NCBI RefSeq assembly: GCF_017355855.1
Contig: NZ_JAFEWD010000004.1
Location: 1 to 64,000, forward strand
DNA: 64,000 nt
Origin: Pedobacter sp. SYSU D00535
Lineage (GTDB): Bacteria > Bacteroidota > Bacteroidia > Sphingobacteriales > Sphingobacteriaceae
Direction of reading: 5' to 3'
Below, one piece after another: positions 1 through 8,868 of the stretch. The translations under genes were made by a program, and so were the position numbers. The notes beneath the pieces were generated by a model. It saw nothing but the letters and a program-made list of their open reading frames with translations, was not told the DNA's origin and searched no databases. Position 1 is the stretch's first letter; every line of letters begins with the position of its first letter.

Positions 1-448
1 CCCCGTGAAGGGTAAAGACAAGTGAGTTGTCGCCGTTAAGTTTCTTGGTAAGAGCAGCACCAATGGCAACAGAGAGTCCCTGACCTAAAGATCCGGAAGC
101 TACACGTACACCCGGCAAGCCTTCGTGCGTGGTAGGGTGACCCTGCAACCTGGAGTTCAGCTTACGGAAAGAGGCAAGCTCAGCTACATCAAAATATCCG
201 GAACGGGCAAGCACGCTGTAAAAAACAGGAGAGATATGTCCGTTGGAGAGGAAGAACAGGTCTTCGCCCTGGCCGTCCATATTGAACTCAGGCTTGTGCT
301 TCATCACCTCGAAGTAAAGGGCAACAAGGAAATCAGTACATCCTAAAGAACCACCCGGGTGGCCCGACTGGCAGGCATGTACCATCCGTACGATGTCTCT
401 TCGCACCTGGGTGGCTACCTGGTTTAGTTTATTTATATCTGCGTTCAT
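1..448 (-). CDS. Transketolase, N-terminal subunit (partial, 3' end outside window)
   Basis: Reading the minus strand from an ATG at 446-448 gives 149 codons with no stop, running off the left edge. The protein begins MNADINKLNQVATQVRRDIV and contains SGHPGGSLGCTDFL and FFLSNGHISPVFYSVL, then QGHPTTHEGLPGVRVASGSLGQGLSVAIGAAL. These are the thiamine-diphosphate-binding segments of the N-terminal half of transketolase. In Bacteroidota transketolase is usually split into an N-terminal subunit of about 280 residues and a separate C-terminal subunit, so the partner gene probably follows beyond the left edge. Role: non-oxidative pentose phosphate pathway, cytoplasm. The enzyme family is clear; the split form is inferred from the phylum because the 3' end is not visible. 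Confidence 0.9.
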   Translation of the reverse strand, partial: MNADINKLNQVATQVRRDIVRMVHACQSGHPGGSLGCTDFLVALYFEVMKHKPEFNMDGQGEDLFFLSNGHISPVFYSVLARSGYFDVAELASFRKLNSRLQGHPTTHEGLPGVRVASGSLGQGLSVAIGAALTKKLNGDNSLVFTLHG

Positions 449-577
449 ACGATTTACAAAGCGGCTAAATTACTTATTTAGGGCGAATGCTCGGTTAGTT
501 AAATTTATTAACATCTGAAGAAAAGTGTGGAAAACGTAACCTTGTCAAATTGTATTCGTAAAAAGGTGAAAAATAGT

Positions 578-585
578 TATCTTTG
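578..585 (+). promoter_or_regulatory. Probable -7 promoter element of the collagen-like operon
   Basis: TATCTTTG matches the Bacteroidota -7 consensus TAnnTTTG exactly and lies 68 bases before the ATG of the collagen-like gene. A TTG at 550-552 could be the -33 element, but the spacer of 25 is longer than the usual 17-23, so the assignment is tentative. Confidence 0.35.
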
Positions 586-653
586 GAGAAATAATTTTTC
601 ACGGATTTCTATTCGTATCAACTAAATTAACGTCTCAAACAGAGGGTTCGAAT

Positions 654-2396
654 ATGAAAAAAAATTTACCTAACCTGTCTAAGTTTTCAAAAATGGCAGT
701 GTTTGCCATTGGAGTAATTGTTGCCAGCAGCGAGGCTGCGAGTGCACAGAACGGTTCAGTGGGAATTGGCACCACAGCTCCAAATCCTAAAGCAATCTTA
801 GACTTAACATCTCCAAACAAAGGTATATTACTCCCAAGGCTTTCCGAAGCCCAGCGAGAAACATTGCTACCATCAGGGACTAGCAATGCGGGAGCCATCG
901 GTCTTCTTATTTACAATACTACTTCCAATCGGTTTAACTACTGGTTGGGCGATAAATGGTGGGATATAGGTAATGGGCTTAATGGTCAATCTACCTATGA
1001 GCTCTGGAAAACATTTCCAGGAAACGCGGGCAAGACCGAAGCAGAGTTTTTAGCGTCGCTAAGGGGAACTGACGGACAGTCGGCTTATGAGCTTTGGAAG
1101 ACATTTCCAGGGAATGCGAATAAGACTGAAACCGAGTTTTTGACCTCGATAAATGGGCAGTCAGCCTACCAGCTATGGTCTTCTCAGGTTATTAATCAGG
1201 GAAAAACCGAACAACAGTTTTTAGCATCACTTGTGGGGCCAACCGGTCCGGCTGGTCCAATGGGGCTTACTGGTCCTGCAGGTCCTGCAGGACCGCAAGG
1301 GGTACCAGGTATTCAAGGGCCGCAAGGTGATCCGGGGGCAGTAGGTCCTGCTGGTCCAGCAGGACCGCAGGGTATTCAGGGAGATCCTGGCCCAGCGGGA
1401 CCAAAAGGTGATCAGGGAGATACCGGACCTGCTGGGCCTGCCGGACCGCAAGGATTACCAGGGCCACAAGGCTTGCCAGGACCAAAAGGTGATCAGGGAG
1501 ATACTGGACCTGCAGGCCCGGCGGGGCCCCAGGGTATTCAAGGCCCTGCCGGCCCAGCAGGTCCAAAAGGGGATCAGGGAGATACTGGTCCTGCCGGCCC
1601 AGCTGGGTTGCAAGGTATTCAAGGCCCTGCCGGGCCAGCGGGTCCGAAAGGTGATCAGGGAGAGACTGGCCCAGCGGGGCCCACTGGGCCTCAAGGTAGT
1701 CCGGGACAACCTGGTCCACAAGGTAGCCCTGGATCTCAAGGTCCACAGGGAGCGCCAGGAGCAGACGGCGCTACTTGGTTAACGGGATCGGGTGCACTGG
1801 CACCAGACGACATCAGAGGAAAAAATGGCGACTTGTACCTGGAGTTGCTTTCGGGCGACGTATACAAAAAAGATAATGGTCAGTGGTCATACACGGGGAG
1901 TAACTTAAAAGGGCCTGTATCCTCCGACTCCTGGGCAAAAGGAGGAAATACGGCGAGTAACAGTGATTTCCTGGGCACAACGAATGGTGTAGATCTTAAC
2001 CTTCGGACCTTTAATGTTACCCGTCTTACCATCAAGGGAACTTCCGGCAATGTCGGCATAGGCGAAATTAATCCTCAGGCAAAATTTGAAGTAAAAGGAA
2101 CGTTCAAACTAGGTGATGGGGGATCGCAACTGAATAAGGTGATCGCAGGAAGCGTTTCTTTAGACCTGCCAGCTATCGCTCCCGGTACAGCGTATAAACA
2201 AACAATCATTGTGGGAGGGGCTGCTGGAGGAAGTGGCTCAGTGAATATTTCTCCACAAACAGAACTTCCCGACGGACTTTTGATTTCCTACAGCCGCGTG
2301 TCGGCCAATAATACCGTTGAAATCAAATTCTTCAACGCTAGTGGTGTTGCTATCGACGCAAATCCAATTGTTTTTAATGCAACAGTGATTCAATAA
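654..2396 (+). CDS. Exported collagen-like (Gly-X-Y repeat) protein
   Basis: 580 residues. Residues 1-31 look like a signal peptide ending ASAQ. Residues 32-100 carry the [20 protein letters not shown]-type segment common at the start of exported Bacteroidota tail-fibre-like and surface proteins. Three diverged copies of a [23 protein letters not shown] unit follow (about 107-193). Residues 195-374 are 60 uninterrupted Gly-X-Y triplets rich in GPA, GPQ and GDQ, able to form a collagen triple helix. The remaining 206 residues are a non-repetitive C-terminal region ending in a beta-rich segment; I see no type A or type B T9SS sorting domain. It is the first gene of an operon; the next ATG lies one base after its stop. 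Likely a trimeric surface or matrix fibre (inference). Proline hydroxylation is not expected in bacteria, so the charged triplets GDQ and GPK probably help stabilise the helix. Confidence 0.85.
1344..1667 (+). repeat. Four tandem 81-bp repeats in the Gly-X-Y region
   Basis: Triplets 13-48 of the collagen region divide into four consecutive nine-triplet (27-residue, 81-base) units. Each starts GPAGPAG and ends GPKGDQGDT (the last copy ends GET). The two middle triplets vary between copies ([21 protein letters not shown]). The DNA copies differ mostly at third positions, so the array is old enough to have drifted but regular enough to change length by slippage or recombination. Confidence 0.85.
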
Positions 2397-2397
2397 G

Positions 2398-3615
2398 ATG
2401 AAGAAGAACGCACTCATATGGATTTTAGGTGCTGTCTTTTCCATGGAAGCATCGGCCCAGGTGGTCAACACCGGGCAGACGATTTCGGTGGATGCAGGGG
2501 GACTGTTTTTTGTCGATACCGATTATATCCATGAAGGAGGTCAAATTAAAAATGCCGGACTTTTTGACCTGAAGGGAGACTGGAAAAACAATTCGCTGAC
2601 TTCTGTGATTTTTGCTCCTGGCTCTAGCGGTGAAGTGCTGTTGTCCGGAAACCAACAGCAGTTGGGCGGGAAGACGAAGACGAGCTTCGTTAATTTGCGA
2701 TTGGCCGGTAATGGGGATAAAACATTGGGAGTGGATGCGGAAGTTGGCGGTGAACTCTATCTTGAAGACAAGCAGCTGCATGCTTCCCGATTTTCGCTTA
2801 CCATTTCAAATCCGGCAATTGATGCTATCAAGAGAACTACGGGTTTTATAACAACAGATGAAAAAGGATATCTAATAAGAAAGACGAATCAGGGGGCGTC
2901 ATATTTATTTCCGCTCGGTTCACTAAAGAATAACCCTAACTTCCTGTCGTATAATCCCTTATATCGGCCCATCAGCTTTGAGCCGGAGAACACGCAGGAA
3001 AATAGTTTCTCAGCAAGTCTTAACAATATCGACCCTTCCTTAGAAGGTTTTGATCGAAACAGGAAACGTTACGATATTGAAAGTGTGTCCGATCGTTACT
3101 TCTACTTGATCAGTCACAATTTTGGATCCTCCAAATTCAACGTCCGCTTTTATCAGAATAAAGATCTGGAGAGCAATACTCCTCAAGTGATCAATTGGGG
3201 GAGCTATTCCATGTGGGAGAAATTGCCATCTTCGGTGGAAGACGGAAACTTTGATGTGGGGCTAAACAGGAGCTTGGTGTATACCTCTGCGCAGCTGATC
3301 AATCAGATGCCCATCACTTTTGCAAGTACCACTGATCTCAGCAATCCATTTACGTTTTTCAACGCATTTTCTCCTGACGGAGATGGAAGAAACGATACCT
3401 GGACAATCGGGAATATCGATTATTTCCCTCAAAACGATCTGACGATCTTCAACAGGTGGGGAGATGAAGTGTTCAGAACGAGTGGTTATAGCAATGCCGG
3501 AGCCTGGGACGGAGGTAACATGCAGGCAGGGACCTACTTCTATGTTCTGAACGTGAAAATCAACGGTGACACGAAGACTTACAAGGGATTCATCACCATG
3601 ATAAAGAAAGATTAA
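2398..3615 (+). CDS. T9SS type B sorting domain (gliding-motility C-terminal) protein
   Basis: 405 residues. A signal peptide (MKKNALIWILGAVFSMEASAQ) is followed by a beta-rich region of unknown fold. The last ~90 residues (NAFSPDGDGRNDTW, then IFNRWGDEVFRT, AWDGGNMQAGTYFYVLNV and a final YKGFITMIKKD) are the gliding-motility-associated C-terminal domain, the type B signal for T9SS export. It starts one base after the collagen-like gene and ends one base before the PorP/SprF gene, so the four genes are almost certainly co-transcribed. In Flavobacterium johnsoniae, type B cargo such as SprB needs a partner SprF-type barrel; the adjacent gene fits that role. The N-terminal portion resembles the exported proteins that describe interrupted or missing values in a surface layer only in general composition, so no function is assigned. 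Confidence 0.88.
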   Translation: MKKNALIWILGAVFSMEASAQVVNTGQTISVDAGGLFFVDTDYIHEGGQIKNAGLFDLKGDWKNNSLTSVIFAPGSSGEVLLSGNQQQLGGKTKTSFVNLRLAGNGDKTLGVDAEVGGELYLEDKQLHASRFSLTISNPAIDAIKRTTGFITTDEKGYLIRKTNQGASYLFPLGSLKNNPNFLSYNPLYRPISFEPENTQENSFSASLNNIDPSLEGFDRNRKRYDIESVSDRYFYLISHNFGSSKFNVRFYQNKDLESNTPQVINWGSYSMWEKLPSSVEDGNFDVGLNRSLVYTSAQLINQMPITFASTTDLSNPFTFFNAFSPDGDGRNDTWTIGNIDYFPQNDLTIFNRWGDEVFRTSGYSNAGAWDGGNMQAGTYFYVLNVKINGDTKTYKGFITMIKKD

Positions 3616-3616
3616 A

Positions 3617-4615
3617 ATGAAACGCTATCTACCAACGGTCTTTCTGCTGTTCCTTTCGACGTTTGTAGTTGGACAGCAAGATGCACAATACAGTCAATAC
3701 ATGTTCAATACGATGGTAGTTAATCCAGCTTATGCAGGCTATAGGGAAACTATCAACGCAAGTCTCCTCCATCGGGATCAGTGGACGGGATTACAGGGGG
3801 CACCGAAAACTCAATCGCTGGTATTGGACGGTGCCTTTGGAAGGGACAACAAAGTAGGATTAGGACTGGCGGTGGTGAATGATAAGATCGGGCTGCAACG
3901 GCAGAGTTCGGTTTATGTAAATTATGCGTACCGCCTTCCAGTAGGTGAAGAAGGAGCGCGGCTATCCTTTGGTCTGGCGGCAGGTATTGGTCAATACGTT
4001 TTAAATGCTTCTGATGCGACCTTCGCTGATCCCAACGATCCCAATCTGGCAGCTAATCAGACGCATTTTGTTCCTGATGGCCGTTTTGGAATTTATTACA
4101 GTGACAATCGCTTTTACGCAGGGGTCTCGGCAGTTAATCTTATGTCGAAGGCCATGAACTACCAGGAGATAGAAAGAGACTCGGAGATAGGAAGAGGAAA
4201 CACTGTTGTGCGGCAGGGCAGACATTTCTTTTTAACAGCCGGATACCTGGTTAATTTGAATGAGGACTTTAAGTTTAAACCCTCCTTTCTTATAAAAGAA
4301 GACACTAAAGGCCCTACTAATCTGGATGTTAACTCTTTCTTTCTGGTGAAAGAATCTTTCTGGATTGGAGCTTCCTACCGGACGGGTGTTAATTTGTGGA
4401 AAAAAAGCAGTTTGAATAGCGGAACTTTTCACCAAAATTCGGTGGTAGGTGTGGTAGAAACATATTTTTCAAATAAGTTCCGTGTAGGGTATGCTTATGA
4501 TTACTCTTTATCCGATCTTGGAAATTACTCCAACGGAACTCATGAAATATCATTAGGAGTGGTATTAAATGGAAACAAGAAAAGTACAGCGCTGCTTACA
4601 CCACGCTACTTTTAG
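3617..4615 (+). CDS. PorP/SprF-family T9SS outer-membrane protein
   Basis: 332 residues with signal peptide (MKRYLPTVFLLFLSTFVVG) and the family's hallmark start of the mature protein, QQDAQYSQYMFNTMVVNPAYAGYR, followed by DQWTG and many alternating hydrophobic beta strands ending in an aromatic residue (TPRYF). Family members are about 300-350 residues outer-membrane barrels that take part in T9SS secretion or in surface attachment of type B cargo. Position between a type B cargo gene and an OmpA/TPR gene is the standard arrangement of such triads. This copy is probably dedicated to its neighbours rather than being the housekeeping PorP, an inference from context only. Confidence 0.9.
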   Translation: MKRYLPTVFLLFLSTFVVGQQDAQYSQYMFNTMVVNPAYAGYRETINASLLHRDQWTGLQGAPKTQSLVLDGAFGRDNKVGLGLAVVNDKIGLQRQSSVYVNYAYRLPVGEEGARLSFGLAAGIGQYVLNASDATFADPNDPNLAANQTHFVPDGRFGIYYSDNRFYAGVSAVNLMSKAMNYQEIERDSEIGRGNTVVRQGRHFFLTAGYLVNLNEDFKFKPSFLIKEDTKGPTNLDVNSFFLVKESFWIGASYRTGVNLWKKSSLNSGTFHQNSVVGVVETYFSNKFRVGYAYDYSLSDLGNYSNGTHEISLGVVLNGNKKSTALLTPRYF

Positions 4616-4624
4616 TCTTGTAAC

Positions 4625-6607
4625 ATGACCGTTAAAAAACTATTGCTTGTATTCTTAATTAGTTCGGCTGCCTTATTAATTCCTGGGAACATTTTTTCGG
4701 ATAACATTAAAAAGGCAAACAAGTACTATGAAAAGTACGACTACAAGCTTGCTTTAGATATCTATGAAGACATCATGCGCAAAAAACCTTCCCTTGAGGT
4801 TGCGCAAAAACTAGCGAATTGCTATAGGTTTATAAACGATACAGAAGGGGCAGAGCGGGCATACGCGCAGGTACTGACCTTCAGCGGATTTGATCCCATC
4901 AATTACAAATATTACGCCGACGCGCTGAAGCAAAATGGAAAATTTGAAGAAGCTAAGCGCAACTACACCCTTTGGGGCCAAAATGCACCTGCTCAGGCCG
5001 GAGAAGCAACGAGATTGGCTAATTCAACGGATGTTGCCAGAATGTGGGCGGAAAACCCCGACCAAAATGTAAAAATCGAGAACGCATCTGCGCTGAATAC
5101 GCCGTATTCTGAATTCTCACCGGTCATTTACAAAGAAGGCATTGTTTTCACCTCAGACCGACTATTTTCTCAAAAAACCAAAGGCAAAAAGAAGGAAGAA
5201 ATATTTGGCTGGACCGGAAATCCGTACCTGAAGATATATCAACTTACTAGCCTAAATGGGGGGAACCTACAGCCGTTCTCTTCAGTTTTGAATGAAGATT
5301 ATCACAACGGACCTGCTGTGTTCACTAATAGCGGGGACCTTGTATTTTTTACAAGGACCGAAGCACCTAAGGGTAAAAAGAAAGATCGTCCATCCATCGT
5401 GACAAAAAAGATTTACTACTCCCGTCAAAGTGGTAATACCTGGGAAAGTCCCCGACCCCTTGAATTAAACAGTCCCGATTATTCAATACAGCATCCTGCT
5501 TTAAGCCCGGATGGTTCAATCCTCTATTTTGCATCTGATATGCCTGGGGGGCTTGGGGGAATGGACCTTTATGCATCCAAAAAGACAGAAAATGGAGCTT
5601 GGGGACAACCTGTAAATTGTGGTCCCAATATCAATACAGCAGAGGATGAAGTGTTTCCCGTAGTAAGAAGCGACGGGCGTTTTTATTTTTCATCAAAAGG
5701 ACATGTTGGAATGGGTGGCCTGGATATTTTCACTGCCCAGGGTAGTTATAATACGTTCAAGCTCCCAGAAAATCTGAAGACGCCGACAAATTCAACCAAA
5801 GACGATTTTGGAATTTTATTCCTTGGCGAATTCAATGGCTATTTTTCCTCTAATCGCGGCGGTGGAAAGGGACTTGATGATATTTATAGTTTTTCTATGG
5901 ACGTTTCCAAGCCAGTGTTTGCTATCAAGGGCGAAGTTGTAGATAAAGCAACAGGAAGCGCCTTGAGCAATACAGAAGTTGTATTAGTAAATAAAACGAC
6001 GGGAGAACAAACAAGAGCACTGTCAGACGCGGCCGGAAAGTTCTATTTCGAGCTGGAGCCTGAGATGGATTATGTAGTGAGTGGGAACAGGGATAAACTT
6101 TATTCTCGGCAAGAGGGGCAAATATCCACTAAAGGACTCAAAGAGTCGACTGTCTTTGATGTTCAGTTTGAGCTGGAAAAGGCAGAGGACGATGTATATT
6201 TGGTAAGACTGGATAATATCTACTACAATTTTAATAAATGGAATATCCGCCCCGATGCGACCGATGAGCTCAACAAGGTAGTCTCTTTCATGAATAAAGT
6301 GACGGGGGTTAATATCGAGATGCGTTCGCACACGGATGCTCGGGGAAAGGCAGCGTACAACAAGTGGTTGTCTCAGAAGCGGGCAGAATCTGCTATTCGA
6401 TATCTGGTAAACCGAGGTGTTGCTAGCTCGAGATTAAGCGCTGTAGGTTTAGGAGAAACTGAATTAGTGAATCGTTGCAGTGATGGCGTGAAATGCTCAG
6501 AGCGGGAGCACCAGCTTAACAGGCGTACAGAGTTTAAAGTTGTAAAAATTAAGCCGGAAAATGCAGGGATGCCTACTGCGGTAGCGGTAAGCTCACGGAA
6601 AAAGTAG
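4625..6607 (+). CDS. PorE-like TPR / beta-propeller / OmpA-domain protein
   Basis: 660 residues. After an N-terminal signal (about 1-25) come TPR helices (about 29-110, KANKYYEKYDYKLALDIYE), a PD40/WD40-like propeller with repeated SPDG.LYFASD-type blades (about 150-415), a carboxypeptidase regulatory-like domain (about 425-505, IKGEVVDKATGSALSNTEV), and a C-terminal OmpA domain (about 525-640) with the peptidoglycan-binding pattern RSHTDARG...NKWLSQKRA. The same order of domains is known from PorE of Porphyromonas gingivalis, which links PorP to peptidoglycan. Located nine bases after the PorP/SprF gene, it likely anchors that barrel to the cell wall. No lipobox cysteine is obvious at the signal-peptide end, unlike P. 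gingivalis PorE, which is a lipoprotein. Confidence 0.88.
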   Translation: MTVKKLLLVFLISSAALLIPGNIFSDNIKKANKYYEKYDYKLALDIYEDIMRKKPSLEVAQKLANCYRFINDTEGAERAYAQVLTFSGFDPINYKYYADALKQNGKFEEAKRNYTLWGQNAPAQAGEATRLANSTDVARMWAENPDQNVKIENASALNTPYSEFSPVIYKEGIVFTSDRLFSQKTKGKKKEEIFGWTGNPYLKIYQLTSLNGGNLQPFSSVLNEDYHNGPAVFTNSGDLVFFTRTEAPKGKKKDRPSIVTKKIYYSRQSGNTWESPRPLELNSPDYSIQHPALSPDGSILYFASDMPGGLGGMDLYASKKTENGAWGQPVNCGPNINTAEDEVFPVVRSDGRFYFSSKGHVGMGGLDIFTAQGSYNTFKLPENLKTPTNSTKDDFGILFLGEFNGYFSSNRGGGKGLDDIYSFSMDVSKPVFAIKGEVVDKATGSALSNTEVVLVNKTTGEQTRALSDAAGKFYFELEPEMDYVVSGNRDKLYSRQEGQISTKGLKESTVFDVQFELEKAEDDVYLVRLDNIYYNFNKWNIRPDATDELNKVVSFMNKVTGVNIEMRSHTDARGKAAYNKWLSQKRAESAIRYLVNRGVASSRLSAVGLGETELVNRCSDGVKCSEREHQLNRRTEFKVVKIKPENAGMPTAVAVSSRKK

Positions 6608-6615
6608 AAAGGAAA

Positions 6616-6640
6616 AGCCCGCTTCGTCAGAAGCGGGGCT
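6616..6640. terminator. Hairpin between convergent operon end and bcp
   Basis: AGCCCGCTTC-GTCA-GAAGCGGGGCT forms a ten-base stem with one bulged G. On the minus strand the stem is followed by CTTTTCC, so it fits best as the bcp terminator; on the plus strand it lacks a T-run but may still stop the OmpA operon. Confidence 0.65.
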
Positions 6641-6647
6641 CACAGTA

Positions 6648-7112
6648 TCAGGCATTTAGCAGGTCAAGAACTTGCTTCGACGATTCTTTAGTATCTACCT
6701 TATCAATTATTTTCTTAATGGTGCCCTCTTTGTCTATGATAAAGGTCTTCCTGGCAGTTCCCATATATTTTTTTCCGTACATATTCTTTTCTACCCAAAC
6801 CCCGTAGTCGTTCACAATCTTTTGATCAGTATCGGCAATCAAGCTGAAGGGGAGTTGATACTTGCTAATAAACTTCTGGTGTGATTGCTCGTCGTCGGTG
6901 CTTACGCCGATGACGGTAAAGCCTTTTTGTTGCAGCGATTGGTAATTGTCGCGAAAATCGCAAGCCTCAGCCGTACAGCCCGGAGTATCGTCTTTAGGGT
7001 AGAAGTAAAGAATTACATCTTTACCAAGAAAATCACTAAGAGAAACGGTGTTCCCATTCTGATCTTTCGCTGTGAATACCGGAGCCTTGTCTCCTTCTTT
7101 TAATTCTGACAT
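6648..7112 (-). CDS. bcp: Thiol peroxidase, Bcp-type peroxiredoxin
   Basis: 154 residues, full length for the family. The motif TPGCTAEACDF places the peroxidatic cysteine at C46 and the resolving cysteine at C51, the spacing of Escherichia coli Bcp. The thioredoxin fold starts with APVFTAKDQNGN and VILYFYPKDD. It reduces hydrogen peroxide and organic hydroperoxides using thioredoxin in the cytoplasm. Its ATG lies four bases after the stop of the M23 peptidase gene, so it is probably the last gene of a three-gene operon with the fumarylacetoacetase-family and M23 genes. Confidence 0.95.
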   Translation of the reverse strand: MSELKEGDKAPVFTAKDQNGNTVSLSDFLGKDVILYFYPKDDTPGCTAEACDFRDNYQSLQQKGFTVIGVSTDDEQSHQKFISKYQLPFSLIADTDQKIVNDYGVWVEKNMYGKKYMGTARKTFIIDKEGTIKKIIDKVDTKESSKQVLDLLNA

Positions 7113-7116
7113 AGTT

Positions 7117-8868
7117 TTATTTATAAAATGATGCGGTATAAGTCCTTGAATTCATCTTCATATCAGTAACTATTAACTGGAATAGATGTTTTCCGGAAGA
7201 AGTCCGGTAGTCGAAGCTATGTTTCAGTGTGGCTGTCTTTGCGTCAAACTCCATTAATACCCATTGCCCATCGATCGTTGCCGAGTAGGACCGTATTCCG
7301 GATAAATTATCAGATATTTTAAATACTATTGAGGCGAGTCCCTTCATTGACTTGGCATCACTGATATTAACAGGGCGGATACTTGGAGGGACGGTATCAA
7401 CAGTTACGTAGAAACTACCGAAACTTCGCGGACTCGCTTTAACAAAACCATCCTTTTCATCGAAGCTGCCTCCCTGGGATATTCCTCTCGTATCTACAAT
7501 CAGCGCCTTGCCCAACAAGTGCTGGGGAAGGCCTGTTTCTGGCTTGATCCACAGATCGTAGTTGGTATGCAGGGGAGTTAGTCGGTTATGAACATCGTGC
7601 ACCGAAGAATAGCCGGCACGACGGTTTTTTTTAGCATACTGAAAGGTGATATCCGAATAAAGAGTGCCTTTGGGGACTGATATTTTAACCAAGTCTGTAC
7701 TAAAGTTATTATCGCTTCCAAAGGTAAATTTTTGCTGTCCTGTCGGAGCTTCTGCCTGAATAAACGATGCTGGATTTCTTTTTACTCTGAAAGAAAGGGT
7801 ACTCGTATTTCCGCGGGCATCTTTTATGACGTACCGCATCTGGTGTATGCTGTCGTCCCGAAGTGCAACTATCCCGCGGTTGACAGCCTTTTTGTAAATC
7901 TGAAGCGGATTCCCCGGCTCGATGAAACTCTTTTGGACAGTTCGCTTGTAAAGGATATAGGCCGGGTAGTCGATATGAGAATTAATAGCTCTGGTGTTAT
8001 GAAAAGCAAACTTTTCCTGAGCAGAAGCGTAGATAACTTCATTATCCAGGTATAGTTCTATCGAGTAAACTCCATTTTTATTTCCGCCGGGAACCTGCTG
8101 ATCATAGGTCATAATGCCAAATCCTACCTCTCCGTCAAACTGAATTACAGGAGATTGGTTCAAATGGTAATTTCCATCGCCACCTACCAGCTGAAAATAC
8201 TGCGAAGGAGTTTTCTCACTAAATGGAGCTCCTCCCAAGCGATACATGTACATTCCCGTCAAAATGGGTTTAACCCTGTCAGGTACTTCCAAACCAAAAA
8301 GCTGTGGATTGATTGTTTCCTCGGTTCGGGTATCCCGGAGCTCAAAGTGCAGATGCGGCCCACCGGAGCTGCCCGAGTTGCCCGACCAGGCAATAATGTC
8401 ACCTTTTTTTACCGGAATTTCGATAGGAAGCAAGGGGAAATCGACTTCAAAGCTCTGTTTTCGATATTGATAGTCATTAACAGTTTGGAAGATGCGATCA
8501 TTAAACCTCTGCAAATGTGCATAAACAGAAGTATAGCCATTGGGATGGGTAATATATACCGCATATCCAAAGCCTCCGGCTTGTACCCTTAATCGGGATA
8601 CAAAACCATCAGCAACTGCGTATACGGGATATCCTTCCCGCTGGTTCGTTCGGTAATCCAGCCCCGAGTGGAAATGGTTCCCTCGTATCTCTCCAAAGGA
8701 ACCTGCAAGGGATGGAGCAAGATCGAGGGGTGGTCTAAAATCGTTTGGATAGGCCTTGCTGACCAAGATATCCTGAGCTATAGTGACGGTACCGCTTAAG
8801 GTAAGTAGTATGAATAGTAGTGCGCTTGTGTTAATCTTATTTAATCTCAAAATCCAATAACTTCTCAT
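7117..8868 (-). CDS. M23-family metallopeptidase, exported
   Basis: 583 residues from the chosen ATG. The N-terminus MRSYWILRLNKINTSALLF.. followed by LLTLSGTVTIAQ is a signal peptide. The peptidase domain follows directly (about 40-200): zinc ligands H67 and D71 in HFHSGLDYR, YAHLQRF, and the closing HLHFE. About 380 more residues are beta-rich with Ig-like repeats near the C-terminus (VPPSIRPVNI...SGIRSYSATIDGQW). M23 enzymes cut peptide crosslinks of peptidoglycan or regulate other hydrolases from the periplasm. The open frame extends to 8898, but that start adds ten residues in front of the signal peptide and deepens the overlap with the upstream gene (its stop is at 8837), so 8868 is preferred. 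Confidence 0.9.
   Translation of the reverse strand: MRSYWILRLNKINTSALLFILLTLSGTVTIAQDILVSKAYPNDFRPPLDLAPSLAGSFGEIRGNHFHSGLDYRTNQREGYPVYAVADGFVSRLRVQAGGFGYAVYITHPNGYTSVYAHLQRFNDRIFQTVNDYQYRKQSFEVDFPLLPIEIPVKKGDIIAWSGNSGSSGGPHLHFELRDTRTEETINPQLFGLEVPDRVKPILTGMYMYRLGGAPFSEKTPSQYFQLVGGDGNYHLNQSPVIQFDGEVGFGIMTYDQQVPGGNKNGVYSIELYLDNEVIYASAQEKFAFHNTRAINSHIDYPAYILYKRTVQKSFIEPGNPLQIYKKAVNRGIVALRDDSIHQMRYVIKDARGNTSTLSFRVKRNPASFIQAEAPTGQQKFTFGSDNNFSTDLVKISVPKGTLYSDITFQYAKKNRRAGYSSVHDVHNRLTPLHTNYDLWIKPETGLPQHLLGKALIVDTRGISQGGSFDEKDGFVKASPRSFGSFYVTVDTVPPSIRPVNISDAKSMKGLASIVFKISDNLSGIRSYSATIDGQWVLMEFDAKTATLKHSFDYRTSSGKHLFQLIVTDMKMNSRTYTASFYK

Follow-up and report, generated by a model that had tools for sequence, protein, structure and literature searches.

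We analysed a window consisting of the first 64,000 nucleotides of contig C14 (NZ_JAFEWD010000004.1), which belongs to the 4.89 Mb genome of Pedobacter sp. SYSU D00535. Near the start of the window, four genes on the forward strand encode a collagen-like protein built like a phage tail fibre (gene 1), a small type B substrate of the type IX secretion system (T9SS; gene 2), an outer-membrane carrier of the PorP/SprF family (gene 3) and a PorE-like periplasmic anchor (gene 4). The reading that we favour, with somewhat better than even confidence, is that this block is inherited as one cassette and would build a static surface adhesin anchored to peptidoglycan, in which an untagged, phage-fibre-like trimer would be displayed by way of its type B partner. 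Gene 1 is best read as a functional fibre that would dock on gene 2. The features of the block are as follows (CTD, C-terminal domain).

654-2396, forward strand: gene 1, collagen-like, phage-tail-fibre-like protein, 580 residues; begins like a signal peptide, and searches gave no T9SS sorting domain
747-983, forward strand: gene 1 N-terminal domain (N-domain), GIGT...KGxLxPRL...LLIYN...FNxWxxxxW; from an alignment of 13 rows with 62% mean column identity
978-1235, forward strand: gene 1, three SxYELWKxFPGNxxKTExEFLxSLxG repeats, common to phage proteins; phrog_26303, 8.3e-18, three stretches
1236-1775, forward strand: gene 1 collagen-type stalk, 60 Gly-X-Y triplets; PF01391, about 51 nm if wholly triple-helical
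2142-2393, forward strand: gene 1 C-terminal knob, 84 residues; in 28/28 complete named orthologues, 51% mean column identity over 20 rows
2398-3615, forward strand: gene 2, small type B T9SS substrate, 405 residues; N-terminal part about 20-175, second beta part about 190-312, CTD about 316-405
3617-4615, forward strand: gene 3, PorP/SprF-family outer-membrane carrier, 332 residues; without cysteine, C-terminal tail ...LLTPRYF
4625-6607, forward strand: gene 4, PorE-like periplasmic anchor, 660 residues; TPR-like region (below cut-off), PD40, CarboxypepD_reg and OmpA C-terminal domain
6648-7112, reverse strand: flanking bcp-like gene outside the block, named by eye from its sequence; block border in 18/30 named relatives

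Composition of the four-gene block

The gaps between the four open reading frames are 1, 1 and 9 bases, and both these spacings and the count of 60 Gly-X-Y triplets are exactly as given in the preliminary description of this DNA. A gap of 1 base is too short to hold a terminator. Over positions 1-7200, terminator-like matches (8 against 7.5 expected) and promoter-like matches (11 against 9.9 expected) are both at chance level. The upstream stretch that closes with the gene 1 start carries TATCTTTG 79 bases before its end, and in the corresponding stretches of the ten loci L111-L120 TAAGTTTG occurs at 74-83 without exception. The motif TAnnTTTG occurs in 15 of 29 such upstream stretches, compared with 5 in a reversed-sequence control. 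It occurs in 16 when these stretches are read on the reverse strand, towards the divergent transketolase gene, so nothing firm is claimed for this motif as a gene 1 promoter.

The Gly-X-Y run of gene 1 is unbroken across residues 195-374, whereas the longest run among 2000 shuffles of the protein was 8, and it matches the Pfam family Collagen (PF01391) at 6.7e-28. Signal peptides were judged by eye, without a predictor. Searches of Pfam and NCBIfam revealed no T9SS sorting domain in the protein, in agreement with the preliminary description, and its C-terminal part had no match in Pfam and none up to an E-value of 1 among the sequences of solved structures.

Comparison of orthologues changes the picture of a collagen fibre at the front of the operon: the fibre gene is constant, but the collagen is not. 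Counting only runs of at least five, the triplets of the 28 complete named orthologues add up to between 0 and 177, with at least 12 in 21 of them. Six are short (252-263 residues), five of these lacking triplets and one (L102) having 5, and L097 carries other repeats in place of collagen. With none or only 5 triplets in 7/28, collagen as the conserved core is ruled out; it is instead a spacer of adjustable length between two constant parts, the N-domain and the knob. At 0.286 nm per residue for the collagen helix, a triple-helical stalk would measure 51 nm here and, with all runs added together, as much as 152 nm in relatives. A collagen of that length would not fit upright in a periplasm, which favours the surface reading. 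The N-domain is proposed to be a trimerisation or docking domain. In one locus (L122, from the metagenome-assembled genome (MAG) of Pedobacter sp. UBA4863), gene 1 lies across two reading frames, possibly through decay or through an assembly error in the repeats.

The knob provides a connection to phages. Its profile matches a 699-residue protein elsewhere in the source genome (56 bits, E 1.1e-14; C12:215000-227000, locus L209), in which a GDSL lipase domain is followed by the knob. This protein sits in a collinear gene row, with an Amidase_2/PG_binding_1 gene after it on its strand, and we read the row as a putative prophage tail and lysis region. The knob of the 699-residue protein in turn matches nine phage-collection records at 38-43% identity, and the sequence relation between the block's knob and phage proteins holds in these two steps only. 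Gene 1 itself matches PHROGs 6320, 5073 and 1806, mostly via its collagen part, and when 20 knobs were compared with PHROGs every E-value was above 0.005.

Folds of gene 1 parts were compared using a predicted model of the stalkless L104 protein. The knob was nearest to a phage depolymerase C-terminus (6tku; Z 6.7, root-mean-square deviation (rmsd) 2.9 over 78) and also resembled a pyocin fibre (6cxb; Z 4.8), both matches being weak. Weak, too, were the matches of the N-domain to the N-terminus of phage Mtd (1yu4; Z 5.5, rmsd 1.9 over 43) and to the collagen XV trimerisation domain (3n3f; Z 4.9, rmsd 3.9 over 51). A kinship of the knob with phage receptor-binding ends, and of the N-domain with the Mtd and collagen XV folds, is only suggested by these models, and the comparison barely probed parts of the gene 1 and gene 2 models.

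Gene 2 carries the type B export signal, with matches to the CHU_C type IX signal (PF13585; 1.1e-22, 80 bits, cut-off 27) and to the type B sorting domain TIGR04131 (46.5 bits, NCBIfam cut-off 35). It is conserved along its whole length, beyond the CTD, and no match to it was found among viral contigs. The predicted model (mean predicted local distance difference test score, pLDDT, 89) places the CTD close to chain D of the NucA substrate complex (8glk_D; Z 9.2, rmsd 2.0 over 74 residues) and of the RemA-CTD complex (8gl6_D; Z 7.2, rmsd 2.6 over 75), and the CTD is accordingly modelled in the T9SS substrate fold. The N-terminal part matches 4wa0, titled a possible adhesin domain and which we take to be a beta-helix (Z 10.4, rmsd 3.3 over 134); the modelled part is beta-rich and probably a beta-helix, and the match shows no function. 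The source genome encodes SprA.

Gene 3 is a clear member of its family by both PorP_SprF PF11751 (2e-79, 267 bits, cut-off 22.3) and TIGR03519 (277 bits, cut-off 90.6). It lacks the SprF twin-cysteine motif and has no cysteine anywhere. In gene 4, OmpA, PD40 and CarboxypepD_reg score above their cut-offs, and the TPR models fall below theirs (best E 0.0021). Because it also falls below both NCBIfam cut-offs, at 397 bits for PorE (600) and 467 bits for CHU_0125_OmpA (620), we label it PorE-like only. Family matches thus bear out the type B cargo, barrel and anchor that had been named from the sequence, gene 4 with that reservation.

The C-terminal tail of gene 3 points to how the carrier is held. 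Window positions 4598-4612 encode its final TPRYF. After clustering at 70% identity and exclusion of block loci, PorE is the next gene for 15/16 PorP proteins ending in P[RQ][YF][FYL], as against 2/30 of the others, the pattern having been broadened from PR[YF][FYL] once the exceptions were known; with the narrower pattern and the block included, the counts are 48/49 and 8/54. Conversely, a cysteine occurs within the last 14 residues in 10/47 PorP proteins without PorE next and in 1/56 with it. L108 (Pedobacter duraquae), the only one of 30 orthologous blocks without PorE, has a PorP that also lacks the PRYF end. SprF, for comparison, has a twin-cysteine tail that bonds to GldK (PMC12635249). 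We read the tail as a putative PorE docking peptide, the counterpart of that cysteine tail, and the pattern has the look of a docking code. With its cysteine-free carrier and PorE-associated tail, the complex would be static, and the preliminary comparison of the triad with SprB/SprF gives way to a PorE-linked layout.

Thirteen PorP-family genes are present in the source genome, three of them with a PorE-like gene next. Several tandem type B-PorP pairs occur at C16:1-37000 (L088, L089) and C1:18000-29900 (L090); their PorP ends and CTD ends are nearly identical, as if one such export pair had recently been duplicated.

Conservation of the block and wider occurrence of its fibre domains

Full-length cargo (gene 2) at 35% identity or more is present in 28 of 201 genomes of the family Sphingobacteriaceae. 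The cargo of G057 is distant (29%), and the remaining genomes match in the CTD only or at contig ends. Scanning named genomes with the single cargo sequence gave no confirmed relative; a profile of 22 cargo proteins recovered them, yielding 30 orthologous loci (L093-L122) among the best 80 matches considered, one of them cut by a contig end. These loci come from Desertivirga, Paradesertivirga, Daejeonella, Hufsiella, Nubsella, Pseudopedobacter, many Pedobacter and some MAGs, and two of the records bear names of other families. In a draw of 395 genomes from the phylum (4 candidates scored per genome), only the source genome and a second member of its family matched the cargo over its full length. 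On the genomes surveyed, the block is a family trait of the Sphingobacteriaceae.

The four-gene order is conserved, and the refuting condition set by the preliminary description, an order kept in no relative, is therefore not borne out. A gene 1 with N-domain and knob lies immediately upstream of the cargo, on the same strand and within 12 bases, in 28/30 named loci, the two misses being L121, where the cargo is at the contig start, and L122 with its frame-split gene 1. Gene 2 is followed by PorP in 30/30 and PorE is present in 29/30. A transketolase gene is found within three genes upstream in 29/30, and bcp within four genes downstream in 18/30, some contigs ending sooner. Fifty lower-scoring type B loci from the same scan, 35 of which show an upstream gene, served as a control; within three genes on the same strand, none had an N-domain profile match.

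The knob and the cargo co-occur one to one. Across 151 family genomes, the knob profile scored at least 63 bits in 28, the same 28 that carry the cargo, and the knob sits just upstream of it. When 12 genomes without full-length cargo were queried, nine gave a transketolase match at E 1e-90, and in 8/9 of these bcp lies directly beside transketolase, with an M23 gene behind, leaving an empty site. All nine keep SprA, so the block is not required for having a T9SS translocon. From these gene arrangements, the block appears to be gained or lost as one unit.

Fibres also stand beside T9SS partners outside the block. Among 33 N-domain loci outside it, from 61 family genomes, 10 have a type A or type B CTD or a PorP close by on the same strand, compared with 3/120 control genes of the same loci; for a type B or PorP neighbour the counts are 7/33 and 0/120. 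The enrichment has a Fisher probability of about 1e-5 with relatedness not removed, several positives being close relatives and the controls being drawn from the same loci rather than from random places in the genome. L269 is scored as negative by the rule used, though it runs into the fibre-type B-PorP-PorE row of L063. A type A CTD was called from [YFL]PNP near the end, and all five calls checked in NCBIfam were confirmed.

Several gene orders are represented. L058 has two fibre genes followed by type B, PorP and PorE, and L215 has a fibre beside a protein whose type A CTD is confirmed by NCBIfam. Four genomes of genus g21 (L212, L216-L218) have the order type B-like, PorP, fibre with knob; among knob-bearing genomes of this genus, this order (G042, G085, G091, G097) and that of the block (G021, G055, G076, G143) are never found together. 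In four g18 loci (L210, L211, L213 and L220), a separate knob-bearing collagen fibre of 27-338 triplets lies on the same strand as a small type A-like gene, which adjoins the fibre at 232-456 bases or, in L213, lies two genes off; the one checked in NCBIfam (L210) was confirmed. The block fibre in L210, L211 and L213 has no stalk, and in L220 the block is cut by contig ends. Fourteen weaker knob matches from the 151-genome search were inspected by locus: the ten just named, the prophage-like fibre of L209 and three with no T9SS neighbour. The phylum draw gave six partial cargo matches, and of the four whose surroundings were viewed, L222, from another family of the same class, shows fibre, type B, PorP and PorE. 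The pairing is thus wider than the single operon first described, which itself stands as a conserved unit. Fibre tips differ among N-domain loci: besides the knob, a C1q-like tip is seen in L063 and a coiled-coil-like tip in L271 (both by eye).

Two further arrangements were observed. In L133, which comes from a Flavobacteriales MAG and is one of the 50 lower-scoring type B loci, a 266-residue GIGT-type protein, a 189-residue type B protein, PorP and PorE lie in a row; the fibre-like protein was seen by a looser motif, and the N-domain profile gives no match. In L064 and L065 (g18), the type B protein before PorP and PorE has only 170-175 residues (the CTD plus about 75-80), and a collagen-like open reading frame is among the upstream genes.

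A proposed display route and its alternatives

We propose that gene 1 is the subunit of a fibre, expected to be trimeric, made up of the N-domain, a stalk of variable length, in this genome a collagen triple helix, and a knob of the kind that phages use to bind receptors. It would reach the periplasm by its own signal peptide, without a T9SS signal. Gene 2 would act as the adaptor, its N-terminal beta part binding the fibre, probably at the fibre's N-domain, and its CTD carrying the pair through SprA, a very wide channel, to the gene 3 carrier. This carrier would retain the pair in the outer membrane, and gene 4 would fasten the carrier to peptidoglycan, with the knob facing outward in an adhesive role. 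N-domains recur near T9SS-tagged partners while tips differ, and on that ground we tentatively assign docking to the N-domain and binding to the tip. Genes 2-4 are in keeping with what has been described for related proteins: each type B protein has a PorP/SprF carrier of its own and remains bound to it (PMC12635249, PMC12618676), PorE binds both PorP and peptidoglycan (PMC9143113), and the complexes of type B operons that include a PorE gene have been taken to be static (PMC12618676, PMC9143113).

A number of observations weigh against this proposal. The signal peptide of gene 1 could permit exit by another route. Orthologous loci are not independent, and one ancestral block could persist by linkage; in addition, L108 lacks PorE and L122 has a split gene 1. 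By the rule used, 23/33 N-domain loci outside the block have no T9SS neighbour, so such fibres need not depend on one, and three of the four partial cargo matches viewed lack an N-domain neighbour. In four of the 23 loci (L279, L281, L283 and L287), the genes that come after the N-domain fibre on its strand code for proteins of about 195-204, 337-440 and 590-600 residues, perhaps a sigma/anti-sigma set and another fixed fibre context. The type B call in g21 is weak, L212, the one tested, scoring 30.4 bits against a cut-off of 35. As regards the phage connection, the window's own knob had no direct phage relative in the phage collection. The minimal L104 model has a mean pLDDT of 75.6 and a predicted template modelling score (pTM) of 0.47, the fold matches of knob and N-domain are all below Z 8, dUTPases come close behind phage proteins among those of the knob, and no Foldseek match had an E-value below 0.001.

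One alternative is a reading in which the genes share only their regulation, the fibre leaving by its own route or staying in the envelope and its operon mates serving the same condition without contact. Both the signal-peptide-like start of gene 1, with no T9SS domain, and the many N-domain loci lacking a T9SS neighbour would fit such an arrangement. Presence or absence of the whole block and one-to-one co-occurrence suit a physical partnership better, however, and the recurrence of a fibre with a T9SS-tagged partner in differing gene orders also speaks against regulation alone, which we regard as unlikely while still giving it some weight. Less probable again is that gene 2 is the functional surface protein and gene 1 a helper in the periplasm or on the surface, for example an assembly scaffold for gene 2, rather than an adhesin. 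This would explain why gene 2 is conserved over its full length while the middle of gene 1 varies strongly; it sits poorly with the weak resemblance of the knob to phage receptor-binding ends and with the type B proteins of L064 and L065, which are reduced to 170-175 residues. The three protein kinds encoded by genes 2-4 match the PorE-PorP-PG1035 complex of Porphyromonas gingivalis (PMC9143113), and they might be its equivalent in general secretion, with gene 1 as an accessory cap. We consider this very improbable, as the genome has 13 PorP-family genes, three with a PorE-like gene next, and SprA is kept in 9/9 relatives without full-length cargo. The preferred reading remains the partnership of gene 1 with the type B protein, which the preliminary description had raised as a possibility; its view of the four genes as one unit, and of the fibre protein as lacking a recognisable T9SS signal, is supported as well.

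The fibres outside the block allow a broader and more tentative suggestion, possible but in our estimation short of probable. Bacteroidota may have a two-part T9SS display route in which phage-fibre-derived proteins without a T9SS signal, with exchangeable stalks and tips, dock by their constant N-domain on a small CTD-bearing adaptor and are thereby exported and kept on the surface. The type of CTD and the C-terminal tail of the carrier would set the fate of the complex, a PRYF tail leading to PorE and the wall, a cysteine tail to the gliding track and a type A CTD to lipopolysaccharide. If the display of fibres on tagged partners is real, T9SS export reaches beyond CTD-bearing proteins, a phage-type fibre riding on its partner. 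More surface proteins could then be predicted in a very common phylum, small proteins of type B such as PG1035 would gain a suggested role, and nature would offer a collagen display scaffold of tunable length.

Comparison with known systems

The closest counterparts of genes 2-4 pair a type B protein with a carrier of the PorP/SprF family. The PorE-PorP-PG1035 system of P. gingivalis likewise has a PorP-like barrel that holds a type B protein and that PorE links to peptidoglycan, the PorE domain layout being similar, and the available text mentions no fibre gene (PMC9143113). In contrast to the 13 PorP-family genes here, P. gingivalis has a single PorP, with PG1035 as the sole type B protein (PMC9143113). 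Fjoh_3952-3951-3950 of Flavobacterium johnsoniae is the same triad, for which static cell-wall anchoring has been proposed; the part of that account available names no upstream fibre partner (PMC12618676), whereas here an untagged fibre is the constant fourth part. The sprC-sprD-sprB-sprF operon of F. johnsoniae also has extra genes beside its type B protein and carrier, and SprC is said to travel on the gliding track (PMC12635249, PMC9870892). SprB is a mobile gliding adhesin whose carrier is bonded to GldK by its twin-cysteine tail, unlike the cysteine-free gene 3 PorP.

Gene 1 itself can be set beside two other groups of proteins. Phage tail fibres and collagen-like tail proteins have the same modular plan of N-domain, collagen or other repeats and C-terminal knob. 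Unlike these, gene 1 is chromosomal, lies beside tkt (transketolase) in 29/30 named relatives, and has a signal peptide and T9SS neighbours. Scl1, Scl2, Lcl and other collagen-like adhesins of bacteria consist of a Gly-X-Y stalk with terminal globular domains. Gene 1 shares the stalk and would differ in being displayed via another system, and it falls far under the family cut-offs (117 of 325 bits for Scl2, 106 of 500 for Lcl). Judged by titles and the starts of abstracts among the papers listed, with subscription papers and preprints mostly uncovered, none describes a collagen-like or tail-fibre partner of the T9SS/SprF triad. The preliminary view of an undescribed system is thus upheld in one respect and not in the other: the type B/PorP/PorE triad is known, and the fibre as its constant fourth part, together with the wider pairing of such fibres with T9SS-tagged partners, seems to be new.

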